Positions 11,079 through 13,421 of a stretch of DNA of 64,000 nucleotides are shown piece after piece (the stretch's first letter is position 1; each line of letters begins with the position of its first letter). Made by a program: the position numbers and the translations under genes. Source of the stretch: Pseudochryseolinea flava (GTDB lineage Bacteria; Bacteroidota; Bacteroidia; Cytophagales; Cyclobacteriaceae); the NCBI RefSeq assembly GCF_003286915.1, contig NZ_QMFY01000009.1:62001-126000 (forward strand). Reading direction: 5' to 3'. Under the pieces are notes generated by a model. The model was not told where the DNA came from and made no database searches. It saw only the letters and a list, made by a program, of their open reading frames with translations.

Positions 11079-11100
11079 GGCTTAAATTTTAATCGAACAA

Positions 11101-11131
11101 CAAAAGTAGAGTAAAAAAAGGTAGTATCAAA
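11101..11131 (-). promoter_or_regulatory. Bacteroidota-type promoter for tatA-gatA-mltD
   Basis: On the minus strand TTTG (11128-11131) is followed by exactly 19 bases and TACTTTTG (11101-11108), an exact match to the Bacteroidota sigma factor consensus TTTG-N19-TAnnTTTG. The TatA start codon is about 22 bases further on. Confidence 0.65.
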
Positions 11132-11198
11132 CGCAGAAAAATCTGCCAAAAAGTACCGTTTTGCGCGTTTTTTCGTAAAAATGGGCTATCGTCACATT

Positions 11199-11234
11199 AA
11201 AAAAGTGGCCGAGGAGCGCGAAATCCATCGGCCA
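11199..11234 (-). terminator. Intrinsic terminator of the PrnB-like operon
   Basis: A 7-bp inverted repeat TGGCCGA (11206-11212) / TCGGCCA (11228-11234) is followed on the minus strand by CTTTTTT (11199-11205). It lies 75 bases past the stop of the helix-turn-helix gene. Two smaller hairpins sit between the stop and this site (TCGTGT/ACACGA at 11275-11291 and AGGGAT/ATCCCT at 11257-11274). Confidence 0.65.
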
Positions 11235-11309
11235 GGTGGACGATTCATTTAAAATGAGGGATTTTTTTATCCCTTCGTGTTTTCGACACGATAATTTCCT
11301 GAGTGATAA

Positions 11310-11555
11310 TTATTCCTCCGACGACAAAATCAACCTGTCGAGATTGAATTTCTGACTGTCGGAAGTGTAGACATAGCTGTGATGTTTGGCGCTCCATTCA
11401 ATCTTTAGCCCCATGTTTGCCTTTAACGTGCGCATCAAACGAAATACGGTAGATTCAGAAATTTGTAATTTTTGACTAAGCTCCTTTGGTGAGCCTGTAG
11501 CCTTTCGCCTGATCATCTTGTCGACGACCGCCAGGCGGGTAATATACTTTTCCAC
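11310..11555 (-). CDS. Small helix-turn-helix protein, probable regulator
   Basis: 81 residues, almost entirely one winged-helix DNA-binding domain: a first helix IT-RLAVVDKMIRRKATG, then SPKELSQKLQISESTVFRLMRTLK as the helix-turn-helix, then a short beta wing (LKIEWSAKHHSYVYTSD). It has no ligand-binding domain. It is the last gene of a three-gene minus-strand operon, 18 bases after the PrnB-like gene and just before a terminator, so it may regulate this operon. That role is inferred from position only. The similarity is to HTH_11/DeoR-type N-terminal domains. Confidence 0.72.
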   Translation of the reverse strand: MEKYITRLAVVDKMIRRKATGSPKELSQKLQISESTVFRLMRTLKANMGLKIEWSAKHHSYVYTSDSQKFNLDRLILSSEE

Positions 11556-11573
11556 GGATCAAATAAAATAATG

Positions 11574-12707
11574 TCAACGGGTTTGTACTTTCTCCATAAC
11601 GTACTTCTGACGTTCGACCACAAGTGCCGACATCATTGCCGCAGTATTCCTTTGTTGAAGATCGATAATGTGTTGAAGAATATCCGTCGCATACCCACCA
11701 CTTCCTTTTTGATGATGCTTATCGTCTTGATGTTGGTATGCACTCTCGGCTACCTTTTTGTGCGGCATTCTGAAACTCTTCAACACAGTGAAAAGATCAG
11801 CCAGTGCTAATGCATTATTGAAAACTTCCAACGAGGAATTTGTTGCTAATGCTTGCGCCATGCGTGCCGCCAATGACGGTTTGTTTTCGTAACGATCATA
11901 AATCTCGCGAACAACAGGAAGGTTATAACTTAAATAACCCTTTTTGAATTCAGTGTACACCTGGTCATCACAATCGCAGCTCCATAACAAGTGATCAATG
12001 AGGAACATCGGCATTTCTACTGCACCTGGTCCCATGTATTTATTGTTATAGTCGACTTTGATGGCGTCGTAATAAAAACGCAACTCGTTGGCGAAAACTT
12101 CCGGAGAAACCTTACGCTTCGCCAATACAATACCTCTTACCATGCCTTCCAACATTTCGCGGATCGTTGTGCAGTGATCTGCAAATGAAGGATCGTTCAA
12201 GGCAATGCTATGCGTTTTATCTAGTAGATTAATGGCATCCAACAACGAAGGATAGGCGATCTTAACACTTTCAATAAGCTGCTTTTCATCCTCTAATCCA
12301 GTGTAAGTTCTGATTCTTTCATTGGAAGGATTCCAAGCAGTATAATGAATGAGCGTGTCGCGCGGAGGCAATCCGGTTTTGACCATCAACACAAGCAAAA
12401 CGTATTCGAGTTCTGGTAAAACATCTACAGGCTCAATACCATGTTTTTTCAAAATGCCGATGAAAATTCCGAGGTCGCGCATGCTGGCGATTGCTTCTTC
12501 GTATCCAAAACCATCCAGCCTATCGGGAACCGGTAAGTGACGATACAAAAGCTGGATGATTTCGTGAGTATTTCCTTCGCGATTAAGGGCATGCAATACA
12601 GGCAGGGCGTTATCAAAATTCAACGGATCCAGCGACTGAATCATCTCCTGCTTCCCCAACCATGGATGCTCTATCAAATTTAATGTTGCCGTACGCTGCG
12701 TTTGCAT
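11574..12707 (-). CDS. PrnB-like protein of the IDO/TDO haem superfamily (DUF1864-like)
   Basis: 377 residues, with no signal peptide. I assign it to the monodechloroaminopyrrolnitrin synthase (PrnB) family by pattern: PRDTLIHYTAWNP (115-127), a central SP-FANELR-Y (201-212), the MGPGAVEMPMFLIDHLLW region (225-242) and a C-terminal block FRMPHKKVAE...KGSGGYATDIL. In IDO/TDO enzymes the proximal haem histidine lies in an R-x(2-3)-H-x2-V context about 20-40 residues before a GTGG substrate loop. Here His316 and GSGG (335-338) match that order and spacing. PrnB itself rearranges 7-chlorotryptophan, but no halogenase or other prn genes are present, so the substrate here is unknown. It is second in a three-gene operon (8 bases after the SpoIIAA-like gene). 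Confidence 0.7.
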   Translation of the reverse strand: MQTQRTATLNLIEHPWLGKQEMIQSLDPLNFDNALPVLHALNREGNTHEIIQLLYRHLPVPDRLDGFGYEEAIASMRDLGIFIGILKKHGIEPVDVLPELEYVLLVLMVKTGLPPRDTLIHYTAWNPSNERIRTYTGLEDEKQLIESVKIAYPSLLDAINLLDKTHSIALNDPSFADHCTTIREMLEGMVRGIVLAKRKVSPEVFANELRFYYDAIKVDYNNKYMGPGAVEMPMFLIDHLLWSCDCDDQVYTEFKKGYLSYNLPVVREIYDRYENKPSLAARMAQALATNSSLEVFNNALALADLFTVLKSFRMPHKKVAESAYQHQDDKHHQKGSGGYATDILQHIIDLQQRNTAAMMSALVVERQKYVMEKVQTR

Positions 12708-12715
12708 AATCTTAA

Positions 12716-13114
12716 TTAGTTAAGAAGCCATTTAGTACATTCTGTTTCTGAGTTGAACATGTTGATGGTAAGACGTCCAACCTTTGCTTCGGCGTTTACT
12801 TTATTTACGGTCGCTGCAGCAAACACGTCATCTGCTACCACGGCGCCGACTTTTGTAAGACCTACTTTCTCAACTTCTGGGAACCATTCCTTCGTGAGGA
12901 AGTCCTGCACTTCTTTAGACAATACTTTCAAGGAACGGTGATCACTCAAGTGACTCTTGATGTCTTTTTCTTTGATGTACTTTGTCATGAACGCGCATCC
13001 TTTTTTTACATCATCAGGTCTTAGGAACCCGATCCATTTTGCATAGATAACATTGGTGTCTTTGTCGAGTGTAATGTCGACATAAGGTTCTTTAAGAAGG
13101 GTCAGCTTACTCAT
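12716..13114 (-). CDS. SpoIIAA/STAS-like small protein
   Basis: 132 residues with no signal peptide. The alternation of short beta-strands and helices (YVDITLDKDTNVIYAKWIGFLRPDDVKKG ... HLSDHRSLKVLS ... VGAVVADDVFAAATVNK) resembles the SpoIIAA-like/STAS proteins found in many copies in Cytophagales. These are often of unknown function and may bind lipid or a partner protein. It is the first gene of the operon with the PrnB-like haem-superfamily gene. The catalytic or binding role is not known, and I assign the fold by general pattern only. Confidence 0.65.
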   Translation of the reverse strand: MSKLTLLKEPYVDITLDKDTNVIYAKWIGFLRPDDVKKGCAFMTKYIKEKDIKSHLSDHRSLKVLSKEVQDFLTKEWFPEVEKVGLTKVGAVVADDVFAAATVNKVNAEAKVGRLTINMFNSETECTKWLLN

Positions 13115-13421
13115 AGCATTTTTGTTTTATATGATGAGGCAAAGTTGAAAATATTCACTGTCATTTTATGAAAGTGATGAAGGATCCTTCCTTGTTAAAA
13201 CAAACTAAAGTTACATCCGTAAAGCAACCGGTAGACCATACGTTGTAATACGGATACCTGATTTTTAAAGGAGGATATTGCGTTTCTTAACTCGTTGTAT
13301 TTCTAACACTTGAAATAACAGAGGGTAAGTAGAACTACTTACTGTCAGAAAATGACGGCAGAATGAAAAATCAATTTACCGAGGTGAATGTTACATTAAG
13401 CCAATGTAAAATGTTACAAGC
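13115..13421. promoter_or_regulatory. Dyad-rich intergenic region upstream of the PrnB-like operon
   Basis: This 307-base gap has no gene but several perfect inverted repeats: GAAGGATCCTTC (12-bp palindrome, 13179-13190); ATCCGTA/TACGGAT (13215-13221 and 13249-13255); GTAAGTAG-AA-CTACTTAC (13325-13342); and TTACATT/AATGTAA (13391-13397 and 13403-13409). The last lies directly after the LytM gene stop and may belong to its 3' end. The others are plausible operators for the operon starting at 13114. I see no consensus -33/-7 pair; CAACTTTG (minus, 13140-13147) is a one-mismatch -7 candidate. Confidence 0.45.

Follow-up and report, generated by a model that had tools for sequence, protein, structure and literature searches.

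A PrnB-family haem-superfamily protein encoded beside a predicted STAS-fold partner in Bacteroidota loci free of pyrrolnitrin genes

Introduction

PrnB carries out an unusual rearrangement of the tryptophan ring and helps to make the antifungal compound pyrrolnitrin. In the 64-kb window of the Pseudochryseolinea flava genome considered here (the whole stretch of DNA that was analysed), a gene for a PrnB-like protein lies between the genes of a small SpoIIAA-like protein and of a helix-turn-helix protein. What does a protein of this family do in such company?

The first-pass annotation presented the three genes as an operon and as the best candidate in the window for an undescribed enzymatic system. 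The second claim stands in part: the enzyme family is already described, but the STAS partner, the halogen-free setting and a substitution in the substrate pocket are new. Among the matches listed from the open-licence PMC literature, none combines a STAS domain with PrnB, tryptophan dioxygenase or heme-dependent aromatic oxygenase, and no open-licence PMC paper was found which joins PrnB, or the term SpoIIAA-like, with 'Bacteroidetes'.

Organization of the locus

The following features of the window are referred to throughout the text.

12716-13114, minus strand: first gene, predicted STAS-fold (SpoIIAA/RsbS/RsbV-like) protein, 132 aa, ATG start (ORF, AF2 model, Foldseek)
11574-12707, minus strand: second gene, PrnB-family (PF08933) haem-superfamily protein, 377 aa, ATG start (Pfam, phmmer, alignments)
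11310-11555, minus strand: third gene, helix-turn-helix protein, 81 aa, GTG start (PF09339, 9.8e-5)
11195-11245, minus strand: likely intrinsic terminator 3′ of the helix-turn-helix gene (hairpin of -15.9 kcal/mol, z -2.72, U run)
13325-13342, no strand assigned: perfect dyad with 8-bp arms upstream of the operon, possible operator (one of three this strong in 64 kb)
11079-13421, no strand assigned: envC-tatA interval of 2343 bp with the cassette inside (congener comparison)

The three open reading frames which the first-pass annotation placed at 11310-13114 are borne out by the ORF list. All are on the minus strand, with gaps of 8 bp and then 18 bp. The genes of the proposed three-gene operon are present, but the unit that is conserved elsewhere comprises only the STAS and PrnB genes. 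The helix-turn-helix gene occurs in 2 of 24 Bacteroidota loci, namely the window and a Chryseosolibacter locus (L021) whose copy matches at 56% over 73 aa (tblastn). Weaker copies, away from PrnB, were detected in 15 of 58 other relatives. Most of the Pfam helix-turn-helix names proposed for the 81-aa protein were dropped because their scores were below cut-off.

A terminator after the operon is plausible, as judged by the fold energy, the z-score and the U run; the hairpin is not among the calls of a simple terminator scanner. The dyad reported before the operon is real. It reads GTAAGTAG-TT-CTACTTAC at 13325-13342, 5′ of the first gene, and could possibly act as an operator. This sequence was not seen upstream in L021, the sole other locus with the helix-turn-helix gene.

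The PrnB-family protein

The only Pfam match of the 377-aa protein is PrnB (PF08933). With 184.7 bits it lies far above the cut-off of 27, so that the motifs recognized in the first-pass annotation are not a matter of chance. By phmmer, the nearest relative in the PDB is PrnB itself (2v7i, E 1.6e-77), followed by FbPrnB (9dfg, E 7.7e-43) and SO4414 (E 8e-5). The motifs are located as described and align with PrnB: HYTAWNP occupies residues 121-127, His316 sits in FRMPHKKVAE and GSGG (335-338) begins 19 residues further on. An additional segment, GPGAVEMP, spans residues 226-233. In the alignment to 2v7i, Tyr122 corresponds to Val117, GSGG 335-338 to the GSGG loop and His316 to PrnB position 313, which we take to be the haem ligand.

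In all 29 aligned homologues (23 from Bacteroidota, one cyanobacterial and five of the pyrrolnitrin type, a fused relative being left out), His316, the GPGAVEMP segment and the GSGG loop are unchanged, the invariance of GPGAVEMP being partly due to selection since it is one of the two motifs used to find most loci. No homologue without His316 or the GSGG loop is found in this set. The fused relative, from Reichenbachiella, carries the same histidine, GPGAVEMP and GSGG segments. More distant are two Streptomyces homologues, which retain the histidine and differ in the GPGAVEMP segment; one of them reads GSSG for GSGG.

The window protein is assigned the PrnB fold because of its homology to a crystal structure, and this fold would be of the IDO type. 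The C-terminal part of the modelled fusion was compared with known structures in Foldseek. It matches PrnB (3.9e-17), SO4414 (7.5e-6), IDO2 (1.0e-4) and IDO1 (2.8e-3), with low TM values of about 0.4 of the query. Hence the placement in a PrnB/IDO-like haem superfamily is right according to PF08933, the PDB sequence matches and the model of the fused relative. The structural likeness to PrnB, IDO2 and IDO1 is found as expected, but no TDO is among the 50 structural matches listed for this relative.

The window protein shares with PrnB (monodechloroaminopyrrolnitrin synthase, 2v7i/2x67) the family, the proximal histidine and the GSGG and GPGAVEMP segments. In contrast to PrnB, its system comprises no PrnA, PrnC or PrnD, carries Tyr122 in place of Val117 and includes a STAS partner gene. 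FbPrnB, from a Flavobacteriales bacterium, resembles the window protein in having a tyrosine at the 117 position, but the match reaches only E 7.7e-43 and FbPrnB reads GAGGGQIP where the window protein has GPGAVEMP. According to its authors, both Trp and 7-Cl-Trp bind to the haem of FbPrnB by way of their amine, Tyr104 (Val117 in PrnB) narrows the pocket, and a role is given for the loop serine that matches GSGG (PMC11791213). PdnC of the paenidepsin clusters, compared here by its description, is likewise a PrnB homologue outside pyrrolnitrin synthesis, which its authors propose to hydroxylate indole. Unlike the window gene, it occurs in Paenibacillus and lies directly upstream of an NRPS gene in about half of the clusters (PMC13036774).

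Absence of halogenases and the pocket residue

Neither the 64-kb window nor any of the other 23 Bacteroidota loci contains a match to PrnA, PrnC or PrnD. The statement that no halogenase or other pyrrolnitrin gene is present in the window is upheld, and the whole genome is devoid of a halogenase of PrnA strength: its best Trp_halogenase score is 48.2 bits, compared with 585.5 in the Pseudomonas and 554.7 in the Citreicoccus producer. Of the 19 genomes searched, the 17 other than these two producers have no Trp_halogenase score above 53.2.

In the tree, PrnA, PrnC and PrnD are found beside all 22 pyrrolnitrin-type genes and beside none of the 25 others. At the 117 position, valine is present in 22 of 22 PrnA/C/D-linked PrnBs and tyrosine in 25 of 25 others (Tyr122 in the window). 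In our reading of these sequences, Val117 may be the defining mark of the pyrrolnitrin PrnB proper. Two Streptomyces plasmid homologues also have tyrosine at this position, and no STAS gene was found in the stretch examined.

Two loci outside Bacteroidota deserve mention. The record of Pseudomonas protegens FD6 (L051:1167-2243) starts near a prn cluster, and its PrnB reads only in pieces; this locus was excluded, and its PrnA, PrnC and PrnD matches share 50-62% identity with another Pseudomonas cluster. A Cylindrospermum locus (L027:5735-14701) encodes a PrnB homologue with tyrosine at the 117 position and no PrnA, PrnC or PrnD nearby, flanked by a flavin oxidoreductase and a 1796-aa Ser/Thr kinase-AAA-GAF-histidine kinase protein.

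Linkage of the STAS and PrnB genes

Scanning for loci with a profile built from seven homologues yielded 44, 20 from Bacteroidota and 24 from other groups. As the scan used two short motifs, relatives without GPGAVEMP or the PPRDTL-type motif were missed. With the window and G018, G019 and G044, 24 Bacteroidota loci were available for comparison. A profile built from the small protein next to PrnB detected a STAS gene no more than one gene away from PrnB in 22 of these 24 loci, and beside PrnB in 0 of the 24 non-Bacteroidota loci. It lies directly upstream of PrnB on the same strand in 18 loci (gaps of -23 to 84 bp). A methyltransferase gene is placed between the two in L020 and L054, and a divergent STAS-like gene in L049. 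The conserved system is a two-gene STAS-PrnB module: the survey for the same three genes, suggested in the first-pass annotation, finds that the pair recurs (22 of 24) but the helix-turn-helix gene does not (2 of 24).

In Reichenbachiella versicolor, the STAS domain is fused N-terminally to the PrnB-like enzyme in a 509-aa ORF (L017:7524-9053), and a normal, unfused STAS gene follows just downstream. The fused STAS domain is divergent, scoring 75 bits versus 147 for its unfused neighbour. The model of the fusion reaches a pLDDT of 79.9 and a pTM of 0.53, with a low-confidence linker, a PrnB half that rests on 5 relatives and a domain contact that is not readable. Among the fusion alignments with all 24 STAS rows, only those with the first 0-5 PrnB rows were proper, and none of the random sets was. 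A mixed fusion alignment of STAS and PrnB rows was rejected since the STAS rows were placed on the wrong half.

The linkage was also examined independently of the motifs. Searching 390 genomes of the order with PF08933 alone gave 15 matches, the window's own included. All 13 intact PrnB genes above 140 bits in this sample have STAS within one gene, the STAS gene of G526 being visible in L020, which belongs to the same contig. Judged by sequence and contig position, 5 of these loci are new, and the other 8 had been counted before. The remaining two matches are G734, described below, and G626, whose partial PrnB relative of 224 aa has no STAS gene beside it. The class sample contributed 2 further genomes, both with STAS and sequence-identical to L014 and L048, and the phylum sample a single distant PrnB match (G220, 28.2 bits) with no STAS.

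Among 59 relatives, seven carry PrnB-like genes and eight have STAS above 150 bits, these being the seven with PrnB and G036 (157 bits). The high scores in the seven are partly a matter of construction because the profile contains their rows. The informative part of the co-occurrence is the remainder: 51 of 52 relatives without PrnB are also without STAS above 150 bits. Lower-scoring STAS matches are common (36 of 59 relatives at E 1e-6). The STAS copy of G036 lies, by eye, between aroE and uvrB, and since the same place holds the STAS-PrnB pair in G019, it looks like a remnant. Finally, the pairwise identities of STAS and PrnB correlate (r 0.75 over 21 loci, a value reached in none of 2000 permutations), a relation in which the permutation and tree controls leave shared ancestry.

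A second type of STAS gene is located downstream of PrnB in Cesiribacter (L022:9303-9755). A near relative of it stands alone beside an aroE-like gene in G036 (L070:1492-1905).

Proposed function of the pair

We favour the view, with a probability of about 0.5, that the 377-aa protein is a PrnB-family, His-ligated haem enzyme for unchlorinated L-tryptophan or a close relative, which works with the co-encoded STAS protein. Haem binding and the use of tryptophan as substrate are predicted here from the sequence. In the proposed mechanism, His316 would hold the haem iron, on which the tryptophan amine would be placed, while the carboxylate would be held by the two loops, GSGG and GPGA, in the manner described for FbPrnB. 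With Tyr122 at the place of Val117 in PrnB, the pocket would be narrower. The STAS protein would bind the enzyme and supply or gate something that catalysis needs, or a productive state. Both the physical contact and the activation by STAS are what we infer from the pairing. The product can be guessed at, either an aryl-pyrrole as with PrnB or a hydroxylated indole. The system suggests that Bacteroidota make a halogen-free tryptophan product that is still uncharacterised.

How could a STAS protein matter for such an enzyme? Purified PrnB binds ligands and oxygen with no turnover, and the authors of this work suspect a missing component, for example partner proteins (PMC11791213). A STAS protein which travels with, and is once fused to, a PrnB-like enzyme is a concrete candidate for this component, and the two-gene system makes the PrnB question directly testable. 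The stronger proposal, which we regard as doubtful, is that STAS is a dedicated haem-oxygenase subunit and the missing component through which the resting, amine-ligated complex of haem and tryptophan could turn over. If this were true, the STAS fold would be used as an enzyme activator and the inactivity of purified PrnB relatives would be explained. A general need for STAS is argued against by Dyadobacter (see the next section), by the Streptomyces homologues and by the four-gene pyrrolnitrin pathway, prnA-D alone being sufficient to yield pyrrolnitrin in E. coli (PMC11791213).

Loci without STAS and history of the site

In two Dyadobacter loci the enzyme looks intact, but STAS is found neither within 8 kb nor, at 40 bits or more, anywhere else in the genome. 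The best STAS match is 39.4 bits in one of these genomes, and none was obtained at E 1e-5 in the other. The partner is therefore not needed in every branch. In a tree of 47 PrnB rows, made by a quick method and with several long branches flagged, the 24 Bacteroidota rows are set apart from the 22 pyrrolnitrin rows and Cylindrospermum (SH-aLRT 97). As Dyadobacter falls inside the Bacteroidota side, STAS loss is the simplest reading. The PrnB-like gene of G734 (L131:5459-6636), which has no STAS neighbour, consists of two overlapping frames and is either broken or misread; if it is not misread, the branch without STAS may be losing its PrnB gene. By eye, the G734 and Dyadobacter loci share a neighbouring helix-turn-helix gene.

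At the site of the window, the order DUF4292 gene, envC-like, tatA and amidase is kept in 6 of 6 congeners. The gap between envC and tatA measures about 119-361 bp in these genomes, the three genes being unmatched there in all six, compared with 2343 bp in the window. The cassette is read as a gain at this site because the site is empty in every congener. Two of the six carry the STAS-PrnB pair elsewhere, without the helix-turn-helix gene. A search for repeats flanking the cassette, as expected of a mobile element, found none.

Could the enzyme work alone, the STAS gene being a passenger or an expression aid that stays near by co-inheritance? The Dyadobacter loci would fit, as would the fact that gene order may persist among related bacteria without any contact of the products, and FbPrnB obtained from E. 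coli is soluble, haem-loaded and tryptophan-binding (PMC11791213). However, STAS and PrnB stay together in different genomic settings, the two occupy as a unit a site which congeners leave empty, and one fusion of them is seen, all of which makes a solitary enzyme unlikely. An enzyme that works with its STAS partner is the preferred reading.

The STAS-fold protein

The 132-aa protein is predicted to adopt the α/β STAS fold of SpoIIAA. The AF2 model has a pLDDT of 89.1; its best Foldseek match in the PDB is SpoIIAA (1tid, E 1.7e-4), followed by 2q3l, RsbV and RsbS, and stressosome proteins are matched as well. Query TM values to SpoIIAA, RsbV, RsbS and the DUF3478 protein 2q3l are 0.52-0.65 (best row each), but identities amount to only 10-16%. 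Thus 'SpoIIAA-like' is right by fold but weak by sequence: the protein scores 14.3 bits with PF11964 (E 0.07), below the cut-off of 25, and 7 of 24 members of the STAS alignment match PF11964 at E 1 or better (best E 0.0016). A profile search for relatives of solved structure returned nothing (best E 0.7). An AprA winged helix assigned to this gene was dropped on account of a Pfam score below cut-off.

Ser66 at the start of a helix is found in 20 of 24 STAS rows and is not invariant; the phosphoserine of SpoIIAA is presumably located at the start of this same helix. The DSSG phosphosite motif, in which the protein differs from its structural relatives, was not seen in the window protein or in its aligned relatives. 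Scanning five genes on the flanks of the operon in the window revealed no kinase, phosphatase or sigma factor. Elsewhere than the operon, the window genome encodes two HATPase_c_2 candidate kinases (frames of 139 and 143 aa) and four further STAS copies. One of these copies is a STAS-like domain of the same family that ends a sensor histidine kinase (L061:1435-3393; HisKA and HATPase_c by Pfam), and another lies, by eye, between two sensor-like genes. Twenty other STAS copies, considered by gene layout only, revealed no common partner.

A haem-based tryptophan or oxygen sensor, signalling via STAS partner-switching as in RsbR/RsbS or LOV-STAS, would make use of several of these traits: the fold itself with its SpoIIAA, RsbV, RsbS and stressosome matches, the two copies in sensor surroundings, the HATPase_c_2 proteins and the widespread Ser66. 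We nevertheless consider this function of the PrnB-like protein quite improbable, given that Ser66 varies, that DSSG is not seen, that the scanned flanking genes include no regulatory gene of the kinds listed above and that the twenty other copies share no partner by layout. In addition, the neighbours found at other loci point to chemistry.

Neighbouring genes and the reaction

In three lineages (G018, G504 and L020) the STAS and PrnB genes are separated by a COMT-type methyltransferase gene, and in L019 such a gene stands divergently beside the pair. The nearest PDB relative of the enzyme is RedM (E 4.8e-87), which methylates a tryptophan-derived bisindole. It has a histidine where RedM has Ser253, a residue whose role in RedM has been described (PMC10784701). 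Pyrroline N-methylation was not assumed because of this replacement, which makes O-methylation as likely. The methyltransferase is absent from the window genome at E 1e-20, and unlinked copies occur in other genomes.

Acyl transfer is hinted at by a second kind of neighbour.

L010:5686-6666 and L146:5041-5958: GNAT-type genes after PrnB, in two phyla

These genes, from a Pedobacter bin and a Streptomyces plasmid, directly follow PrnB and are homologous (37% over 307 aa), which suggests that the PrnB product is acylated where a GNAT gene follows. The methyltransferase and GNAT neighbours favour an enzyme over a sensor and leave its product unnamed. An ordinary IDO-type catabolic dioxygenase making N-formylkynurenine from tryptophan is very improbable, for although IDO1 and IDO2 turn up when the fold of the fused relative is compared, the matches to PrnB are far stronger (3.9e-17 versus 1e-4 and weaker; 1.6e-77 by sequence). 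A PrnB match is present in 6 plasmid records, of which the two from Streptomyces were examined; in the Streptomyces plasmid other than the one with the GNAT-type gene, a flavin oxidoreductase follows PrnB.
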